Both the position numbers and the translations under genes were made by a program. DNA of 27,708 bases from a virus, in the IMG/VR virus record IMGVR_UViG_3300046009_007421, positions 1 through 27,708 of that record. The stretch is one strand, 5' to 3'. Positions 7,939 to 27,696 of this stretch are shown one piece after another. The notes under the pieces are model-generated. The model searched no databases, was not told where the DNA came from, and was given only the letters and a program-made list of their open reading frames with translations. The first letter of the stretch is position 1; each line of letters opens with the position of its first letter.

Positions 7939-8832
7939 TTATTTAATAATTATATCTCTTCTTTTAAAAATAGATGAATTGTATTTTATACAATCCAGTA
8001 ATATACTATTGATTTCATTAAGTAAATATTCATATTCATATTGTTCATAATCATAGAATCTAACTTCTGATGGTTTTCCAAAATTGGAATTTCCTATTTT
8101 ATATTCTTTATTTGTTAAAAAGTAATTAACAGAATTTTTAAAATTTTCTACTATTCTTTTTTTATATCCTTCAAAATCATTAATACCAAAATCTTTTTTT
8201 AAAATTTTTATATAATCACCACCATATTGGGAAATTAAATAATCATCTACCTTTGATAGAAAGGAATTATCAAAAGAATTTATAGTATTTAAAATACTTT
8301 CCTTATAAAAAACAAAATCTTTAGATAAAGCTTTTAAATTCTTAAATTGATTTCTATTAAGTTTATTTATATTTTCGTTATTTGTTTTCAATGGAATAAT
8401 ACGAATTTCTTCTCTTGAAGGTGATATTTCATGTATCCAAACTCTTTGTAATTCATTTTCGTTACCAACTCTATTTCTAACAAAGTTAAGATTTATTTTT
8501 AATATACCATTAGTAAATCCTAAATCACTTAATAATTTCTCAATATCAATTGCAACTTCTTTCTTACCTAAATTATTTGTAATATTATACATGTAGTTTT
8601 TAATATCCGTAGATTTTATATATGCTACATTATTTCCAGATTTATGTGGTAACAAATTGTTATTAATATCATAAACCGATATTTCCATAACATCATATGG
8701 TGTGTTACCAAATTCACTTATTTGTATTTCATTTTTAGAAACTATAAACAAATCCTTATCTTCCAAAAATTGACCAGAATTTTCGGTTTTATTGTTTATA
8801 TTTTCAAAATTTGTATATTTTTTAATACTCAT
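7939..8832 (-). CDS. Probable baseplate-associated protein (297 aa), unknown
   Basis: ATG start, 11 bases after the 378-residue gene; TAA stop. I do not recognise the family. The N-terminal half looks beta-rich, with a block VWIHEISPSREEIRIIP (residues about 131-147) that resembles a domain boundary motif of wedge-connecting proteins. The C-terminal half is Lys/Asn-rich and helical (residues about 155-297). No catalytic motif, signal or membrane segment is visible. The gene lies between the coiled-coil protein and the giant baseplate protein and is noticeably richer in Asn and Lys codons than gp6. A role as adaptor between baseplate and fibres is an inference from position only. Confidence 0.7.
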   Translation of the reverse strand: MSIKKYTNFENINNKTENSGQFLEDKDLFIVSKNEIQISEFGNTPYDVMEISVYDINNNLLPHKSGNNVAYIKSTDIKNYMYNITNNLGKKEVAIDIEKLLSDLGFTNGILKINLNFVRNRVGNENELQRVWIHEISPSREEIRIIPLKTNNENINKLNRNQFKNLKALSKDFVFYKESILNTINSFDNSFLSKVDDYLISQYGGDYIKILKKDFGINDFEGYKKRIVENFKNSVNYFLTNKEYKIGNSNFGKPSEVRFYDYEQYEYEYLLNEINSILLDCIKYNSSIFKRRDIIIK

Positions 8833-16746: not shown

Positions 16747-17153
16747 TATTTTACTTTAGTTTTTATTTCTTCAATTTCTATTTCCAAATCAACCATTTTT
16801 TCTTTGGTTTTTTCTTCAACAGCATCTATTGCGTCCTCCATATCTGCAAGTAATTGTTCTTTTTCTTGTTCACTTAACCAACCATCCTCACCAATACCTT
16901 TGGCTTCTGCAGCTGCAAGTCTTTGTGCAATTGTTGCAAGTTTAATTAAATGGTCATCATTTTTAACCGATACCTCAATTAAATCTTTTATGATAGGTGC
17001 AATGACCGTTGCTTCACCAACATTTTTAATCAATTTACGAAGTGATTCAATCAAATCGGAAATGTTTTTCTTTTTGTTTTGTTGGTTTTCGTATATATCT
17101 TTAAATAATGATGATAAGTTTTTACCATCAAATAATTGAAATTCGTTTGACAT
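16746..17153 (-). CDS. Small helical phage protein (135 aa), unknown
   Basis: TAATG overlaps at both ends (with the SGNH-like gene upstream and the spike gene downstream). The protein is mostly helical, with a conserved-looking N-terminus (FQLFDGKNLSSLFKDIYENQ), a middle with VKNDDHLIKLATIAQRLAAA, and a charged Glu/Lys coiled-coil end. I do not recognise a named family. Tight coupling to the spike gene suggests that it is a baseplate hub component or a chaperone for spike assembly. No enzyme motif, signal or membrane segment is present. Confidence 0.75.
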   Translation of the reverse strand: MSNEFQLFDGKNLSSLFKDIYENQQNKKKNISDLIESLRKLIKNVGEATVIAPIIKDLIEVSVKNDDHLIKLATIAQRLAAAEAKGIGEDGWLSEQEKEQLLADMEDAIDAVEEKTKEKMVDLEIEIEEIKTKVK

Positions 17154-17929
17154 TATATTATGTTGTTCTTTATTATATAATTATAAAGTTCCTGACTTAT
17201 TAGATTGTAACCTTCTTTATTTGGATGTTGTGCAACTTTCATTGGGTTTGGAATTTTCTTTTCCCAAACATCTTTACCTTTATAATTTTTCATTAACCAT
17301 GATTCCAAAGATTCGTTTGCAAAACCCCAATATGTTGATTTATCAATTAAATAAGTGTTATCATCTTTTTTATCTAAATTTTGAATCATTAAGTCAAATG
17401 CATCACACATAATATATTTTACACCATATTCATTTAACATATGTTGTAAATAAATTATATAATTTTGATTTATTATATTATAATAATTTTGTGTAAATAA
17501 ATTTCCTAAAAAGAATTTTTTATACTCAGCCAAAAAATTATTAAACTTCTCATCTCCGTATGTATATGATTCTGTAAACTTATGTGGTAAGGCTGATAAT
17601 TCCATTTGTCCCCAACTTATCCATTCACCTTTTGGTAAAAATGGAACATAATCTCTTAACGATGAACTCCACATGATAACAATAAAATCATCTTTATGAA
17701 TTTTACCATTTCTTAAATCATTTATAACCTCATTAAAAATAACATTATTTGCTTTACCACTCCACCCATTATTTACAGGTTCTAATCCTAATTTATTGGC
17801 AAGAATGTTTACCCAACTACTTTCATTTCTGAATAGTTGTAATTGTTTTCTGTCTTTAAATGATTTTTCTATGGGCCAGTTGGTTCCTTCTCCTTCTGTC
17901 CAACTATCTCCAAATGCATGTAGTTTCAT
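17153..17929 (-). CDS. SGNH/GDSL-like hydrolase in the late operon (258 aa)
   Basis: Block I is FGDSWTEGEG with the nucleophile Ser9. Block II is NNGWSGKAN (about residues 53-61). The C-terminal catalytic His is in AQHPNKEGY (His235). The canonical Asp three residues before that His is replaced by Val232, so the dyad/triad may be altered or use another acid. SGNH enzymes remove acyl groups from sugars or lipids; some family members bind without catalysis. No signal peptide is seen. It is coupled by TAATG to the carbamoyltransferase upstream and to the 135-residue gene downstream, so it is made together with tail genes. A role in modifying a glycan, of virion or host, is inference. Confidence 0.75.
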   Translation of the reverse strand: MKLHAFGDSWTEGEGTNWPIEKSFKDRKQLQLFRNESSWVNILANKLGLEPVNNGWSGKANNVIFNEVINDLRNGKIHKDDFIVIMWSSSLRDYVPFLPKGEWISWGQMELSALPHKFTESYTYGDEKFNNFLAEYKKFFLGNLFTQNYYNIINQNYIIYLQHMLNEYGVKYIMCDAFDLMIQNLDKKDDNTYLIDKSTYWGFANESLESWLMKNYKGKDVWEKKIPNPMKVAQHPNKEGYNLISQELYNYIIKNNII

Positions 17930-19626
17930 TATTTGCTAATTAAAAATTTACCTAATACTAAATAATTCATATCACAATTATTAAATGTCCAAATTGCTTT
18001 TTGTGGGTCATTGGTCATTGTATGGTCTTTTAAGTTAAAAGATGTATTCAATAGAATGGGTGTTCCTGTTAGTTTTTCGAACTCCTTTAATAAGTTATAG
18101 TAAAGTGGGTTATCTTCTCTTTTAAGTGTCTGTATCCTTGCAGAATTGTCAACATGCGTTACTGATGGAATGTTTACATCCTTTTTAACTTTGACAACCT
18201 GATTCATATAGGGAACATCTTCTTCTGATAGAAAATACTTTTGATAATCTTCAATTGTAACCGATGGAGCGAATGGCCTAAACATTTCTCTTTTTTTGAC
18301 AACCTTATTAATTCTATCTCTAATGTCGGACAAATGTGGATTACCTAAAATAGAACGATTACCTAATGCTCTTGCACCAAATTCAGTTCTACCTTGAAAC
18401 CAACCTATGATATTACCCTGTTCAATTAGCTTTGCAACTTCTTTACACAATGTCTGTTGGGTATCATGCATTATAACTTTACTTCTATGATTTTGTAATA
18501 TAATTTTAAGTAATTCAGGACTACTCCACTCCTCACCTAAATATGGAGATTGATTATCACCACCTTTTACTTTTGGATTACCAAATGTTTGATGATAATG
18601 ATATAAACATGCACCTATTGCAGAACCACTATCCGATGGAGCAAATGGAATAAATACATTCTTAATTGCTGTAAAATGTTTAATTTTACCATTGGCAGTT
18701 CCATTATATGCACATCCACCACCCAATACTAAATTCTCACATTCCCAAGTATTTGTAATTCTATTGATAATAAAGTATAATGCACTTTCATACCAACCTT
18801 GCAATGAAGCAGCTAAGTCTTTATGATGTTGTTCTATTGGTTCATCTTTGAAACGTGGAGGAAATCCAATTAAATCAATAAGCTTTTGATTAAACATATC
18901 ATTATCGGATGTATGCCATGTAAAGTAAGACATGTCCATCTTTACGATGTCTATTTCACCACCGGTAGTAACAACTTTATCAAATATGTTATTATATTTT
19001 TGATTATCCCCATATGGTGCCAATCCCATTACTTTATACTCACCTTCGTTTGGTTTAAATCCTAAATAAGCAGTAAATGCTGAATATATCAATCCCAATG
19101 AATGAGGAAAGTGTAATGTTTGTATTTTATGAAATCCTTTGTCATCACACATTGCTGCGTATATAGTATGTGACTCACCAACTCCATCGATTGACAAACC
19201 TATTGCTTTATCAAATGGTGATGTATAATAAGATAGTGCCAAATGCGAATGGTGATGTAATGAATATAAAATTTCTCCATCATATCCAATTGATTTTAAT
19301 ATTCCTTTTAAATTACCTTCCGATTGATTCCATCTTTTTAAGAATTGTCTCCATTTCATTGGATATCTTAAACCACCCCATTTACCAATTGTTTCTCTAA
19401 CTCTTTCGAATTTATCGTTTGGATTTTCATACCAACAAACCATATCAATTTCATCAATTGTTATTTTTGCGTATTCTAAACACCATTGGATTGCTTTAAA
19501 CGGAAAAGAACTATCATGCTTTTCACCGGATAGTTTCTCCTCTTCAATTGCACATATAACTTTACCATCTATAACTAATGCAGCTGCTGAATCGTGGTAA
19601 AATGCTGATAAACCTAATTGTATCAT
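17929..19626 (-). CDS. NodU/CmcH-type carbamoyltransferase (565 aa)
   Basis: The full-length architecture of the O-carbamoyltransferase family is present. The N-terminal Kae1-like domain starts MIQLGLSAFYHDSAAALV and contains the metal-binding HHHSH (residues 124-128) and SIDGVGE (about 145-151). The C-terminal domain has the hallmark TEFGARALGNRSILGNP (about residues 415-431) followed by MFRPFAPSV, and a late FNLKDHTM. These enzymes use carbamoyl phosphate and ATP to carbamoylate hydroxyl groups of sugars or antibiotics; in phages, some act on hydroxymethylated DNA bases. The gene lies between the gp55-like gene (3-base gap) and an SGNH-like gene (TAATG). Family assignment is firm; the acceptor is unknown. 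Confidence 0.92.
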   Translation of the reverse strand: MIQLGLSAFYHDSAAALVIDGKVICAIEEEKLSGEKHDSSFPFKAIQWCLEYAKITIDEIDMVCWYENPNDKFERVRETIGKWGGLRYPMKWRQFLKRWNQSEGNLKGILKSIGYDGEILYSLHHHSHLALSYYTSPFDKAIGLSIDGVGESHTIYAAMCDDKGFHKIQTLHFPHSLGLIYSAFTAYLGFKPNEGEYKVMGLAPYGDNQKYNNIFDKVVTTGGEIDIVKMDMSYFTWHTSDNDMFNQKLIDLIGFPPRFKDEPIEQHHKDLAASLQGWYESALYFIINRITNTWECENLVLGGGCAYNGTANGKIKHFTAIKNVFIPFAPSDSGSAIGACLYHYHQTFGNPKVKGGDNQSPYLGEEWSSPELLKIILQNHRSKVIMHDTQQTLCKEVAKLIEQGNIIGWFQGRTEFGARALGNRSILGNPHLSDIRDRINKVVKKREMFRPFAPSVTIEDYQKYFLSEEDVPYMNQVVKVKKDVNIPSVTHVDNSARIQTLKREDNPLYYNLLKEFEKLTGTPILLNTSFNLKDHTMTNDPQKAIWTFNNCDMNYLVLGKFLISK

Positions 19627-21234: not shown

Positions 21235-21444
21235 TTATTTTTTTAATCCGTATTTTATCCATTTATACCAAACTCTTTCGTGAATGTAGTATTGTATGGG
21301 TTTATAAATTAATTCTGCTACTCCAAATGCTGCTCCAACTTTAATTGAACCACTTATCAACCACATTAATAGAAAACCAATAACAGTACTTACAATTCTA
21401 TATGATATGGTTTTAGCAATGTGTCTTTTACGCTCTACTAACAT
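21235..21444 (-). CDS. DUF2061 family small membrane protein (69 aa)
   Basis: The sequence fits the DUF2061 pattern: RHIAKTISYRIVSTVIGFLL, then a Gly-rich SIKVGAAFGVAELIYKPIQY and YYIHERVWYKW at the end. Two hydrophobic segments (residues about 15-33 and 36-52) indicate a small inner-membrane protein. The function of the family is not known to me. The gene overlaps the nucleotidyltransferase by 17 bases and stands three bases before peptide deformylase, so it belongs to the UvdE operon. Confidence 0.85.
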   Translation of the reverse strand: MLVERKRHIAKTISYRIVSTVIGFLLMWLISGSIKVGAAFGVAELIYKPIQYYIHERVWYKWIKYGLKK

Positions 21445-21823
21445 CTTCGTTATCTATGTTGTAAACAATCACATCTCCATTGGAGTCTATGTATTTTTTT
21501 CTAATGGCAGTTCCACTAATTTGTTCGATTTCTTTTGGTGGTTCGTGATATATTACATCATAACCCACACCTCTACCATAGTTTACACTTTCAATATCTG
21601 GAATTATTGATATCATAATCTTATCCCAATTGTTTGTAAAAAATGGTTCTTGTTGTAATTCTTTTAAAACGTCCTGTGCTGATTTAGGATTGTTCTCATC
21701 TATTTGAACATCTCTAATTGCTACCCAACAATTCTTTCCCTTTTCTAATTGTTGATTTATTAACCACTCATGACCTTTATGCCACGTTTGCCATCTTCCA
21801 ATAAATAATGCGTATTTTTTCAT
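21428..21823 (-). CDS. HIGH-type nucleotidyltransferase, NadM/cytidylyltransferase-like (131 aa)
   Basis: It begins with the family motif LFIGRWQTWHKGHEWL (HxGH at residues 15-18) and has ISGTAIRK (102-109) near the C-terminus, the second nucleotide-binding motif. The size (131 aa) is short for NadM (about 170 aa) and close to glycerol-3-phosphate cytidylyltransferase (about 130 aa). It transfers an AMP or CMP group from a nucleotide triphosphate. NAD salvage and lipid/teichoic-type precursor activation are both possible; nothing here decides the substrate. It starts two bases after the stop of uvdE's coding frame and overlaps the DUF2061 gene. Confidence 0.82.
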   Translation of the reverse strand: MKKYALFIGRWQTWHKGHEWLINQQLEKGKNCWVAIRDVQIDENNPKSAQDVLKELQQEPFFTNNWDKIMISIIPDIESVNYGRGVGYDVIYHEPPKEIEQISGTAIRKKYIDSNGDVIVYNIDNEDVSRA

Positions 21824-21824
21824 T

Positions 21825-22712
21825 TTATATAAATTTTAATATTGCTAAATCTTTTTGTTTTGCTTCAACCATAATGTCCACACCCATGTCGTATGTATCG
21901 GGGAGGGTTGTAATATAATCGGAATGTGCTTGCGCTTTAATTTTTGTATTGTTTTCATGTAATGATTTACTTTCGGAATAATGAACTGCCGGTGTTATAC
22001 CTCTCGGCCACGTTGTAATTGCTAATGCCAATGCATCTCGTTCACTTAAATCTCCTGTGTTAAATGAGTGGTGGTGATAATCAAATACAATAGGTATCTT
22101 TATTGCATTGTGTATATACATTAAATCTTTTACCGAATACATACTCGCCTTATCGTCATTCTCAATTGTTAATCGGCTACGAACTGAATCTGATAATTTC
22201 GAAAAGTTATCACAAAATCTATCCATTGCACTTTGTTTGTCTCCATATACTCCGTTGCAATGTATATTAATTTTATTGTAAGGTGTTTTAGATAATTCCA
22301 TTGCGTCCATTATTCTACCATGCACTTCTAAGTCTTTAATCGTATTCAATACCACATTTTCTTTTGGGGATACTAATACATTAAACGGACCGGGGTGAAA
22401 TGATAATCTTTGTTTATACATTGTTGCCTTTGCACCACATCTTTGTAGTATCTTTTGTATTTCGTTCCAATCTTTAAGGTCTGTAAATTCGTATTCGGTT
22501 GCCCACGGAAACATCTCGCTACTCATACGATACATTTTAATTCCCATTTGTTCGTTCCAGTCTATAATTCGTTCGAGGTCTGCAACATTCTGCAATACCA
22601 AATCCGATACATAGTCAAGTCCCTTTGCTATGAAAGTTCGTTTGACCATTGTCCTATTCGTTGTAATCTTTTTACCTAATGAAAGGTTAATACATGCATA
22701 TCCTATACTCAT
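21825..22712 (-). CDS. uvsE: UV damage endonuclease, UvdE/UvsE family (295 aa)
   Basis: The family signatures are clear: YRMSS (61-65), SFHPGPF (104-110), His151 in NIHCNGVYGDK, LTIENDD with Glu184 (181-187), VFDYHHH (209-215), HYSES (244-248), HSDY (263-266) and DIMVEAKQKD with Glu283. These form a TIM-barrel metal site that nicks DNA 5' to UV photoproducts and abasic sites. The length equals the bacterial family (about 300 aa). The N-terminus MSIGYACINLSLG is the usual start. A promoter lies so close that the ATG falls about where transcription should begin, suggesting a leaderless message. Sunlit-water phages often carry it. Confidence 0.95.
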   Translation of the reverse strand: MSIGYACINLSLGKKITTNRTMVKRTFIAKGLDYVSDLVLQNVADLERIIDWNEQMGIKMYRMSSEMFPWATEYEFTDLKDWNEIQKILQRCGAKATMYKQRLSFHPGPFNVLVSPKENVVLNTIKDLEVHGRIMDAMELSKTPYNKINIHCNGVYGDKQSAMDRFCDNFSKLSDSVRSRLTIENDDKASMYSVKDLMYIHNAIKIPIVFDYHHHSFNTGDLSERDALALAITTWPRGITPAVHYSESKSLHENNTKIKAQAHSDYITTLPDTYDMGVDIMVEAKQKDLAILKFI

Positions 22713-25313: not shown

Positions 25314-25850
25314 TTATATTAATTTTTTTATATATTTTTCATTTCTATAACGATTATTTACATTTAACATATATTCATATTTTGTATTTGATATATTAAA
25401 ATAATTTTTTATTTTTTCTAAATCAATTTTTGTATTATATATACCTTCATATGTAATCGAAATATCTACATTCATATTTTTTATTTTATCATTTTGATTT
25501 TTGATATTTTTTTCTAATTTATATAGTTCTTCTCTGTGTTCATCAATCCAATTTTCATCTATTGTATAAATACTATGCCATTTATTTGTTTTTATAGAAT
25601 GTAAATTACTTATTGCACATTCATATATATTTTCTCTTATAATTGATATTTTAATATTATTATTGGGTATCATATCAATTTGTTCCGGTTCCAATTTTAT
25701 AACAAAGTTTCCTTCTTTAAAATCTATTTTTTTATTTACCGAATGGTTATGAAATGGTTCTTGAATATATTTCCTATTAATTTCCTTTGACAACCACTCT
25801 CCAAAACAAGTTCCACCTACTCTACTATACGCTATAATACAAATATTCAT
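25314..25850 (-). CDS. Sulfotransferase-like protein, second copy (178 aa from this start)
   Basis: The N-terminus MNICIIAYSRVGGTCFGEWL has the P-loop-like phosphosulfate-binding segment (SRVGGT) of sulfotransferases, and IKISIIRENIYECAISNLHS resembles the 3'-phosphate-binding region. The rest is helical and Asn/Lys-rich. I chose the ATG at 25850, one base after the stop of the SGNH gene, since the motif is then at the family distance from the N-terminus; an in-frame ATG at 25871 would add seven residues and overlap the upstream gene. It would move sulfate from PAPS to a hydroxyl or amine. Codons are extremely AT-rich (5 G/C in the 60 bases at 25381). It is short for a sulfotransferase, so activity is uncertain. 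Confidence 0.7.
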   Translation of the reverse strand: MNICIIAYSRVGGTCFGEWLSKEINRKYIQEPFHNHSVNKKIDFKEGNFVIKLEPEQIDMIPNNNIKISIIRENIYECAISNLHSIKTNKWHSIYTIDENWIDEHREELYKLEKNIKNQNDKIKNMNVDISITYEGIYNTKIDLEKIKNYFNISNTKYEYMLNVNNRYRNEKYIKKLI

Positions 25851-25851
25851 A

Positions 25852-26655
25852 TTAAGCTTTTTTCGGCACATTCAAATCTTCTGGTATATAATTTCGAAAA
25901 TTCTTTTTAATATATTCAAATAATTTTATACTATACTGATAGTTGTGACTTGGTCCTGGGTGTGCATTATCAACTCCAAAATCTAAAAATGGTCTTGTGT
26001 AACCCCCATCGAATCTATTAAATTCATTATAATCTTTTGGTATATCAAAGGAACCATTCCATAACCAATTGCAACCTTTGGATTCTAAAAAATACTTTAT
26101 TAATAAATGATTTTTATACCAATTTATAAAATCTGCGTTTTCGTTTTGTAATGATACCAAATGATTTTGTGTTTCATTTCCTTCTTCGGAAGATTCTAAC
26201 CACCCCCAACGGGCATTGGGTATGAATGGTTCTATTCCATTATCTTTGGTATATATTTCTCTTCTTTGCGGACTAGTGTACATTATCAATACCAAATCTG
26301 GTTTTATCACATCGTAATATGTTAATAAACATCTACATATAAAATCATTACTTCTGCCACCAGTACCAAAATTCATATCAACGCCGCCAGATATTAACTT
26401 GCAAAATTGATGTGACCATGTTTCATTATTACCCACACCAACCCCTTCGGTAATTGAACAACCTAATGACATTACCTTAAATCCTTCTTTTTTTATACTA
26501 TCACCTCTAAACCCCAATTCATTGTATGTGTATACACATAGATTGGTGTTATCGTTTCCTGAAGTTTTATAAGTTCTATTTACTCTTTCCTTTAATGAGT
26601 ATTTGTGAGATGAAATTTCAAATCCGTCCGATGTCCAATATTCTAGTGGTTTCAT
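25852..26655 (-). CDS. SGNH-like hydrolase (267 aa) in the sulfotransferase cluster
   Basis: The nucleophile block is SLGCSITEG (Ser67), the second block is NFGTGGRSND (about 95-104), and the acid-base pair is DNAHPG with Asp229 and His232. The order and spacing fit the SGNH/GDSL fold. About 60 N-terminal residues precede block I, and they may be a separate recognition part. It would deacylate a sugar or lipid, or act as an O-acyl-modifying partner. It overlaps the dioxygenase gene by four bases (ATGA) and precedes the second sulfotransferase by one base, so all four genes are one operon. It keeps the catalytic Asp missing in the SGNH protein at 17153-17929. Confidence 0.82.
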   Translation of the reverse strand: MKPLEYWTSDGFEISSHKYSLKERVNRTYKTSGNDNTNLCVYTYNELGFRGDSIKKEGFKVMSLGCSITEGVGVGNNETWSHQFCKLISGGVDMNFGTGGRSNDFICRCLLTYYDVIKPDLVLIMYTSPQRREIYTKDNGIEPFIPNARWGWLESSEEGNETQNHLVSLQNENADFINWYKNHLLIKYFLESKGCNWLWNGSFDIPKDYNEFNRFDGGYTRPFLDFGVDNAHPGPSHNYQYSIKLFEYIKKNFRNYIPEDLNVPKKA

Positions 26656-27152
26656 AATAATTTATTTATATCAAATTTTACATGTTCACTTTGTAAAAAC
26701 CACAATAAAGAATACCTTTCACCTTCTAAAATTGAGGTTATTTCGTGGTCTATTCTTACATCAAATAAATATGTATTTCCAATAACTTTATCTAATATAA
26801 TTTCATTTGGATTGTATAATTTAAAATCACCACCTTCAAAATCATTGTTTAATAAAACTCCCACAGCATATAATCTATTATCTCTAACATCATTATGTTT
26901 TCCGAACCAATCACCTTTTGTAAATTTATGAAAATGTATCCTTTTTTTTATTGTTCTGATTTCAATGTTTGTTTCCCTTTCCACAAAATCCTTCAACTTA
27001 TCAAATAACCAATTGGTTTCTAATGAATAATTAATTGGTTGTGATTTATAATTTCTATCTCCCATTTTCCAATCTTTCTGATTTATTTTTAATAAGTTTA
27101 TTATTAATTCACACTCCTCTTTACTAAATAATATTTTTTGTTTTATCAACAT
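26652..27152 (-). CDS. 2-oxoglutarate/Fe(II) dioxygenase, prolyl-hydroxylase-like (166 aa)
   Basis: The iron ligands are visible: His86 and Asp88 in FGKHNDVRDN and His136 in RIDHEI, with Arg146 (GERYSLLWFL) for the oxoglutarate carboxylate. Between them lies FEGGDFKLYNP, the usual beta-helix core. The N-terminus FSKEECELIINLL fits the prolyl-4-hydroxylase-like subfamily. It would hydroxylate a protein side chain or small molecule. It overlaps the first sulfotransferase by 29 bases and the SGNH gene by four. A TET-like role is not supported. Substrate is unknown; a hydroxyl made here could be the acceptor for the sulfotransferases, which is inference. Confidence 0.83.
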   Translation of the reverse strand: MLIKQKILFSKEECELIINLLKINQKDWKMGDRNYKSQPINYSLETNWLFDKLKDFVERETNIEIRTIKKRIHFHKFTKGDWFGKHNDVRDNRLYAVGVLLNNDFEGGDFKLYNPNEIILDKVIGNTYLFDVRIDHEITSILEGERYSLLWFLQSEHVKFDINKLL

Positions 27153-27696
27153 TTATTCTATATTTTTTACCGTACGGAAAATTTTCATTTTTAAGGAAAT
27201 CTATATTTAAATAATCTAATATTTTTTGAAAACCATTATTATAATACAATTCTTCATATGAAATTGTAAAATAATTTTTATCTAAATATTTTAATTTAAA
27301 GCTTCTTTTTAATTCACTAAAAAATAAAGTTTCATTTTCATTTTTTATATCATTTGAAACCCAATGTTTATCCCAATTATTTGTTGTTTTAGCATTTATC
27401 CATGATTCTATTTGTTCTTTTTCATTTTCTCTATATAAACAAATTACTTTATCAGATGTCGATGTAAATATATCATAGTTTTTATAATGATAATAATCTT
27501 CTTTTATAAGAAGATGTTCGGTTTTATATTTATAATCTTTTGGATGAATATCGTTTTGATACCAACTATGGTTAGAGTTCCTAAATTCAGGTTTAATGGT
27601 TGGGTTAAAAAAAACAGTAAAGTTTTTATTAAAATAAAACCAATTAGTTAAATTTGTTGAACCACTTCTTGGTTCTGCTAAAATTGTTATTATCAT
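27124..27696 (-). CDS. Sulfotransferase-like protein, first copy (190 aa)
   Basis: The N-terminus MIITILAEPRSGSTNLTNWF has the PRSGSTN phosphosulfate-binding loop (residues 9-15). KVICLYRENEKEQIESWINA (about 84-103) aligns with the 3'-phosphate-binding strand-helix and with the matching region of the second copy. The stop is TAG. The ATG at 27696 is the first gene start in the window, and only 12 bases remain upstream, so promoter and preceding gene are outside. It should use PAPS as donor. Length (190 aa) is short but the core motifs are intact. Substrate is unknown. Confidence 0.8.
   Translation of the reverse strand: MIITILAEPRSGSTNLTNWFYFNKNFTVFFNPTIKPEFRNSNHSWYQNDIHPKDYKYKTEHLLIKEDYYHYKNYDIFTSTSDKVICLYRENEKEQIESWINAKTTNNWDKHWVSNDIKNENETLFFSELKRSFKLKYLDKNYFTISYEELYYNNGFQKILDYLNIDFLKNENFPYGKKYRINVDKTKNII

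Follow-up and report, generated by a model that had tools for sequence, protein, structure and literature searches.

A C-terminal tag shared by unrelated modification enzymes in a variable island of viral contigs

The viral contig analyzed here, IMG/VR record IMGVR_UViG_3300046009_007421 (a single virus record of 27,708 bases, called the window below), carries at one end a four-gene operon encoding two sulfotransferase-like proteins (ST1 and ST2), an Fe(II)/2-oxoglutarate (2OG) dioxygenase, and an SGNH/GDSL-type protein. The operon is confirmed, and comparison with related viral contigs places it at the 3' end of a larger modification island of variable content, unrelated proteins of which end alike, roughly in K-[T/S]-[L/I]-[I/L]-COOH. 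This shared C-terminal tag, which the original prediction, made from the letters of the window, did not report, is the most informative feature of the system. We assign a probability of roughly 45% to the explanation that the tag docks interchangeable tailoring enzymes onto one partner, most likely an untagged protein here called c4, whose tail they would modify before its release.

All four genes of the operon lie on the minus strand, and the record ends 12 bases beyond the first of them. They encode ST1 (190 amino acids [aa]; 27124..27696), the 2OG dioxygenase (166 aa; 26652..27152), the SGNH protein (267 aa; 25852..26655), and ST2 (178 aa; 25314..25850). The arrangement is as originally described: the open reading frames (ORFs) are codirectional, with overlaps of 29 nucleotides (nt) between ST1 and 2OG and 4 nt between 2OG and SGNH, followed by a 1-nt gap between SGNH and ST2. 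An alternative upstream ATG at 25871 would extend ST2 to 185 aa and give a 20-nt overlap with the SGNH gene. The extreme AT content once attributed to the whole operon holds for ST1, 2OG, and ST2 (20.4, 23.8, and 19.9% GC) but not for SGNH, whose 31.5% GC is ordinary for the record.

Three of the four products carry the tag. ST1 ends in ..NVDKTKNII-stop (tag codons KNII at 27138-27127), the dioxygenase in ..FDINKLL-stop (NKLL, 26666-26655), and ST2 in ..KYIKKLI-stop (KKLI, 25328-25317). The SGNH protein ends in ..NVPKKA-stop, without a tag in its own frame; most of its aligned relatives have an in-frame end ..LI or similar. A tag-like E-K-S-L-I-stop (25847..25864, minus strand) can, however, be read in the -1 frame of this gene, right after a run of six A residues (25863-25858), and its TGA overlaps the ST2 ATG by 4 nt, the usual overlap. 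The simplest cause of this out-of-frame tag would be a homopolymer indel, natural or from assembly, with frameshifting at the A run as a possible alternative.

The enzyme classes first proposed for the four proteins are borne out, for the dioxygenase by motif and profile, for the sulfotransferases by motif and weak Pfam matches, and for SGNH by residues and model. Judged by sequence, the dioxygenase identity is clear: the iron triad (H86-x-D88 and H136) and the 2OG-binding Arg (R146) are invariant in 24 aligned sequences, and profiles matched PHROG 61 (E 6e-12), PDB 6n1f (E 7e-4), and, just below its cutoff, PF13640 (2.3e-5; 25.7 bits versus 27). ST1 and ST2 are putative sulfotransferases by invariant motifs and subthreshold Pfam matches. 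The residues R10-x-G12-S13 and R89..S98 are invariant in 22 aligned ST1 sequences, as are R10, G12, R72, and S81 in 12 aligned ST2 sequences; we take these to be the 5'-phosphosulfate-binding (5'-PSB)-like loop R-x-G-[S/T] near the N terminus and the 3'-phosphate-binding (3'-PB) R..S of sulfotransferases that use 3'-phosphoadenosine 5'-phosphosulfate (PAPS). Sulfotransfer_3 was matched in 11/22 ST1 members (best E 0.0026; window copy 17.1 bits versus a cutoff of 27) and Stf0 in 6/12 ST2 members (best E 0.0045), the window copy not being among the latter, and neither protein had a relevant PDB profile match. The suggestion that the two are paralogs holds in a remote sense, since profile comparison was needed to detect their relationship (hhalign 99%, E 5e-18; BLASTP only E 0.076).

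In the SGNH protein, S67, D229, H232, and G97 are invariant in 22 aligned sequences, and N103 is present in at least 90%; these correspond to the Ser of block I, the Asp-x-x-His of block V, and the block Gly and Asn. Its structure model (predicted local distance difference test [pLDDT] 90) gave 13 Foldseek matches with E at most 0.001, of which 7 are designed scaffolds and the rest SGNH-type enzymes plus CgnD, a protein from the field of ribosomally synthesized and posttranslationally modified peptides (RiPPs). The best natural match had E 4e-4, TM-scores were low (TMq 0.3), and the model was best overlaid by TesA 1j00 (TMt 0.65, E 1.7e-3). The window copy matched no curated family; Lipase_GDSL_2 was found in 9/22 aligned sequences (best E 8.8e-4). 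The probable SGNH-type identity rests on the invariant catalytic residues and on a model with weak SGNH matches.

To place the operon among its relatives, we scanned IMG/VR and collected 41 loci by SGNH and 15 by ST1 (55 distinct, some from one contig). The SGNH orthologs number 50 distinct sequences, 48 with the upstream gene in view; the 2OG ortholog is directly upstream in 23/48, and the 4-nt overlap is retained in 21 of these 23. A sulfotransferase-type gene lies at most six genes from the SGNH ortholog in 41/50, a non-free sample in which some loci were collected with ST1, c4, or a further island protein, c6, as the query, and upstream neighbors are codirectional in 269/269 cases. The view of these genes as a linked unit is upheld by the same figures. 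The order ST1-2OG-SGNH recurs in four loci (L025, L032, L042, and L125); in L042, the closest relative by ST1, ST1 is 82%, 2OG 68%, and SGNH 57% identical to the window proteins, and c4 and c6 are located upstream.

Island membership in relatives varies freely. Clustering of the 55 loci and the window, repeats included, gave one 2OG-type cluster of 121 genes and one sulfotransferase-type cluster of 44. Pfam matches identified further members as radical S-adenosylmethionine (SAM) protein (1.6e-6, just below the cutoff), SET protein (3.8e-13), adenosine 5'-phosphosulfate (APS) kinase (4.9e-17), Trp halogenase (1.2e-86), and Asp/Asn beta-hydroxylase (6.6e-15). The fixed pathway of hydroxylation, deacylation, and sulfation proposed in the original prediction is not sustained by these relatives, in which members come and go and other enzymes join.

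What recurs across the changing membership is the tag. We scored it with the pattern [KN][TSNKHQEDPRM][LIVMF][ILMVFY]-stop, picked after seeing the data, in 213 loci with 2184 distinct ORFs, where it was present at 27.8% of distinct C termini versus 1.1% at internal positions. Among 97 families with at least four members, at least 60% of members are tagged in 18 families, 21 to 40% in 7, and at most 20% in 72. Tagged families include those of the window dioxygenase (145/203), the PHROG-81 2OG proteins (51/55), ST1/ST2 (45/67), c5 (75/92), radical SAM (33/55), c6 (80/107), Trp halogenase (9/11), Asp/Asn hydroxylase (5/6), and SET (5/7, though the SET copy scanned with Pfam is untagged), together with a family (18/20) related to phage proteins that bear dioxygenase or ferrochelatase annotations. 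Several of these are mutual relatives, and the unrelated kinds come to about seven: 2OG, sulfotransferase-like, SGNH, radical SAM, Trp halogenase, SET, and zinc ribbon-like. The name zinc ribbon-like, used for c6, reflects a Cys pattern (no Pfam match and weak PDB matches, E 0.013), and c5 is called sulfotransferase-like from motifs read by eye, three c5 members having no Pfam match. The tag is absent from c4 (0/100), nucleotidyltransferase (0/49), DUF2061 (0/42), HSP20 (0/34), and another family (0/29). In 18 larger families picked as low-tagged, 3/539 members carry it; two families with 2/21 and 12/30 tagged members (fam19 and fam12) are not among these.

Such a pattern could also arise if a conserved gene junction or translational-coupling sequence happened to be translated, and tagged genes do often overlap the next gene (258/602 distinct). 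The sequences themselves largely refute this explanation, which we regard as very improbable: K-T-L-I is written in 19 nucleotide spellings in 68 genes, Ser at position -3 is encoded by both AGY and TCN codons, replacements are conservative, and for 129/602 distinct tagged genes the distance to the next gene exceeds 20 nt. Because of the many synonymous spellings and of the genes standing clear of a neighbor, the tag is seen to be conserved at the protein level. In the ST1 alignment, the ending is retained behind tails of differing length. Endings are also coherent within loci: in a test of 77 loci and 452 genes, agreement of the last tag residue between 19 tagged families within a locus was 0.571 versus 0.521 after shuffling (standard deviation [sd] 0.012; reached in 0/1000 shuffles). 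The same shuffles gave no significant coherence at positions -2 to -4.

The presence of the tag is associated with that of c4. Where a c4-like sequence is in the locus, c6 is tagged in 81/98 cases, and the remaining 17 include 14 whose ends are, by eye, near-variants of the tag. With no c4 in view, c6 is tagged in 0/10, these ten proteins stopping short at ..CPxxKWE[KQR]. Ten c4-less records were searched whole and none had c4, as opposed to all of six others chosen as positives. Tagged genes number 17/215 and 11/213 in the c4-bearing phages G001 and G003 versus 1/156 and 0/206, at or below background, in the c4-less G011 and G016. In G001 and G003, the tag is found in 6/9 and 7/10 genes inside hand-bounded islands versus 11/206 and 4/204 outside. 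G001 also has a second, minimal c4-c6-c5 module (L058; 26138-28793), whose c6 and c5 both end in KTLF. A tag read by a host factor such as a protease, a membrane, or an export system, so that its bearers would share a fate and not a partner, would suit a short basic-hydrophobic C terminus, as degrons and membrane-contact signals can look like that. That reading fails to explain why c6 is tagged with c4 and untagged without it, and most other genes of the same phages are untagged; we consider it improbable.

The structure model of c4 (pLDDT 82) has a Hint domain at residues 276 to 463, with Z 14.1 over 147 residues and a root mean square deviation of 3.1 to 6y75, a bacterial intein-like (BIL) domain. 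The N-terminal part is putatively ATP-grasp-like: Foldseek matched it to glutathione synthases (1m0t, E 1.3e-5; 3kak, E 8.6e-4) with low TM-scores, and D9, E22, N24, R107, K168, and R223 are invariant in 21 aligned proteins. VIA-align of c4 listed Hint matches only. In the Hint part, the residue aligned with intein residue 1 (model residue 281) is Lys in 16 of the 21 proteins, His in 2, and Gln, Ile, and Ser in 1 each. Because Lys, and never Cys, mostly sits at the place of the N-terminal nucleophile, the sequences give no expectation of protein splicing. H460-N461 is invariant in the 21 proteins, and one His-Asn with a Cys within six residues is present in 100/100.

Past the His-Asn, c4 proteins continue in a tail with 17.5% Cys. 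Across 40 close pairs, the first part, the Hint part, and the tail are 69, 61, and 30% identical (20% for the tail without Cys); pairs were picked for a first-part identity of at least 60%, a criterion that favors the 69% figure. A conserved part followed by a hypervariable Cys-rich tail corresponds to a RiPP precursor as a pattern only. In IMG/VR, c4 was confirmed in 291 stretches, of which 80 were kept. A search of bacterial genomes gave 1 relative among 78 pattern matches, and this lies on a 3.7-kb contig (L237) filed under a Pelagibacterales metagenome-assembled genome (MAG), which encodes a tagged 2OG-like protein, a c4 with an S74-like end, and a tagged c6; the contig looks like phage sequence. 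In BFVD, the whole architecture of c4 was not apparent in the top 50 matches (TMq at most 0.27). We also considered c4 and c6 as a carrier protein/nonribosomal peptide synthetase (NRPS) pair and dropped the idea, given the paired Cys of c6 and the ATP-grasp-like and Hint-like sequence of c4.

The docking explanation draws these features together. Enzymes of unrelated families bearing the tag would be recruited to a common partner. The best candidate for this role is c4, which is constant and itself untagged and whose absence from view coincides with untagged c6. The docked enzymes would be hydroxylases, sulfotransferases, and SGNH proteins, elsewhere also radical SAM proteins, halogenases, and methyltransferases. 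With its ATP-grasp-like part, its Hint domain lacking the usual N-terminal nucleophile and keeping His-Asn, and its hypervariable tail, c4 would probably carry the substrate; it is the best candidate for that role because of the RiPP precursor-like pattern of conserved and then variable sequence and of the predicted release device. The Cys-rich tail would be hydroxylated, sulfated, or otherwise modified, and Asn cyclization would then release it, in the way a RiPP core is separated from its leader. A wider version, which we regard as possible though doubtful, is a viral RiPP-like factory with a plug-in code, in which any enzyme gaining K-[T/S]-[L/I]-[I/L] would be recruited to c4 and the released sulfated, hydroxylated, and sometimes halogenated peptide would either be turned against the host or competitors or be shown on the virion.

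Sulfation would need PAPS, and the surroundings of the island bear on its supply. The window encodes a small nucleotidyltransferase-like protein (21428..21823, minus strand; cytidylyltransferase-like at E 0.047 only), homologs of which lie directly downstream of APS kinase in 31/37 relatives and within two genes in 37/37. This neighborhood of APS kinase and nucleotidyltransferase, with DUF2061, suggests a phage-borne supply of PAPS. In the window, the nucleotidyltransferase-like protein and a DUF2061 membrane protein occupy 21235-21823 (minus strand), and both come after APS kinase in relatives. An ATP sulfurylase role for the window protein was rejected, its sole match being the cytidylyltransferase-like one at E 0.047.

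APS kinase nearby in relatives would also serve the tailoring of surface glycans, a glycan form of the surface-molecule idea in the original prediction. A host or virion polysaccharide would be hydroxylated, deacylated, and sulfated, and the tag would be a scaffold for a glycan complex. Sulfotransferases, SGNH proteins, carbamoyltransferases, and glycosyltransferases are typical for glycan tailoring, a glycosyltransferase-methyltransferase fusion adjoins many islands, one partly tagged family (2/5) has a weak match to glycosyltransferase family 2 (GT2), and stretches of G001 at 40-50 and 76-85 kb contain what by eye are epimerase-like and glycosyltransferase-like genes. The glycosyltransferase and epimerase-like genes leave room for a surface-glycan substrate. 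Against it, several island enzymes (Trp halogenase, Asp/Asn hydroxylase, and SET) are of classes known to act on amino acids or on residues within proteins, the constant companion c4 is itself a protein and ends in a hypervariable Cys-rich stretch, and the tie of the tag to c4 is left unexplained. We judge glycan tailoring unlikely.

The ends of some c4 proteins could point toward the virion. By eye, 10/100 c4 proteins have an S74-like motif after the Cys-rich part, as does that of L237; a Pfam scan of one such protein (L169) found no family at E 0.01. On this evidence, the tagged enzymes could modify a fiber or other virion protein, with the tag docking on the assembling virion or a chaperone and c4 acting as a receptor-binding or disulfide-rich fiber-tip protein. 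A collagen-like S74 fiber gene (Pfam 5.5e-19) occurs in 13/56 stretches, loci of one contig being counted apart, and cyanophage 2OG clusters likewise adjoin tail fiber genes. Those fiber-adjacent clusters are untagged, however, with 1/98 ORFs matching the tag pattern in four cyanophage 2OG regions; inspection by eye showed no fiber-like gene next to the second c4 module in G001, and the gene downstream of SGNH differs widely between relatives. Virion decoration is in our view rather unlikely; it and glycan tailoring are the chief competitors of the docking explanation.

Several observations weigh against docking onto c4. The S74-like ends of some c4 proteins, read by eye, would be in keeping with a place in the virion. 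Among the c6 proteins of c4 loci, three lack any tag-like ending; a c6 gene is one of the four genes after c4 in 66/97 cases; and 11 of the 17 tagged genes of G001 lie outside the main island. The c4-less controls are mostly fragments, several of them short and two longer than 100 kb, and a 2OG profile match was present in 1/9 of these records, which makes them mainly a test of c6. Carbamoyltransferase (0/28) and APS kinase (0/36) are untagged though near islands. The mixed SGNH cluster is tagged in 26/114 members by the strict pattern and 61/114 by a loose one, the window copy only out of frame. Coherence within loci is confined to one tag position of four, and shared descent may explain part of it. 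Finally, c4, c6, and APS kinase do not occur in the 27.7-kb window record; we infer their presence in this phage from relatives such as L042.

We next compared the island with described systems. Proteusins are RiPPs with large structured leaders. RiPP clusters, above all those of proteusins, (for literature, see PMC10858898), resemble the island: both have a conserved leader-like part and a hypervariable C-terminal part, with cleavage between the two (predicted in the island), and both use radical SAM proteins, halogenases, 2OG enzymes, and methyltransferases. The island differs in being viral and known from sequence, in a leader-like part made of ATP-grasp-like and Hint sequence, and in that recognition is proposed to lie in a tag on the enzyme instead of a leader-binding domain such as an RRE. 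By analogy, the island may work like a RiPP pathway; we do not claim membership.

T4-like cyanophages likewise have several 2OG genes, partly in codirectional blocks near tail genes, and in the portion consulted these genes are tied to nitrogen metabolism or status (Sullivan et al. 2010, PMC3037559). The difference is that four such 2OG regions have no C-terminal tag and that c4 had no tblastn match, with one query, in 50,697 phage records. In the same records c6 had one weak match, and neither a DNA search with the operon nor tblastn with SGNH and ST1 gave a match (for ST1, at E 1). Sulfotransfer_3 is reported in OM43 phage genomes, similar to Synechococcus phage S-SRM01, and the sections seen call the function of sulfotransferases in phages unclear (PMC10580990). 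This is the same broad family as that of ST1, and those sections describe no such island.

The Hint part of c4 (residues 276 to 463) is like inteins, hedgehog Hint, and BIL domains (Z up to 14) and ends at a conserved His-Asn; it departs from inteins in having Lys in 16/21 at the place of the N-terminal Cys/Ser and in lying between an ATP-grasp-like part and a Cys-rich tail. The ATP-grasp ligases LysX/ArgX with their zinc ribbon carrier LysW recall c4 and c6 in combining an ATP-grasp protein with a small Cys-paired protein that has a special C terminus in one operon, whereas their structural match to c4 is weak (E about 0.1) and in the island many enzymes share the C terminus. The original expectation that no phage operon with this gene set has been described agrees with the phage records and open-license literature searched, and the portions of that literature consulted describe neither the tag nor an ATP-grasp-Hint phage protein. 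We know of no comparable phage system and of no viral peptide-tailoring line with a transferable docking tag. That unrelated enzymes share a tag, tied to one partner protein with a hypervariable tail, provides a hypothesis for the 2OG and sulfotransferase genes of phages that can be tested and that names both partner and substrate. If true, it would reveal a viral source of modified peptides, a short tag able to direct unrelated enzymes to one substrate, and, to our knowledge, the first viral peptide-tailoring line of this kind.

Other genes lie around the island in relatives. In L032 (13577-17886) and L040 (662-3385), a glycosyltransferase-FkbM methyltransferase fusion, a methyltransferase, and a collagen-like S74 fiber gene come after it. 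Tandem paralogs of ~369 aa that end in or near SSGHCGWR are found downstream of the island in L007, L008, L012, L014, and L017 (26 copies across 9 loci). In several loci a protein of ~2000 aa precedes them, and for one copy the only match was to a PHROG of unknown function.

Elsewhere in the window, T4-like baseplate genes are present (gp25 family, 2.3e-13; Baseplate_J, 1.2e-4). Near them, at 17153-19626 on the minus strand, a carbamoyltransferase gene and directly after it a second SGNH gene form a separate small modification pair. This second SGNH protein (17153..17929, minus strand; Lipase_GDSL 2.1e-5) ends in ..YIIKNNII-stop, and its tag-like KNNII end may be due to chance. A UvdE-type UV endonuclease (21825-22712, minus strand; Pfam 6e-66) occupies the same place in some relatives and was not seen there in others. 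A 297-aa protein is encoded at 7939-8832 on the minus strand by a gene of 20.7% GC, among genes of ~30%.

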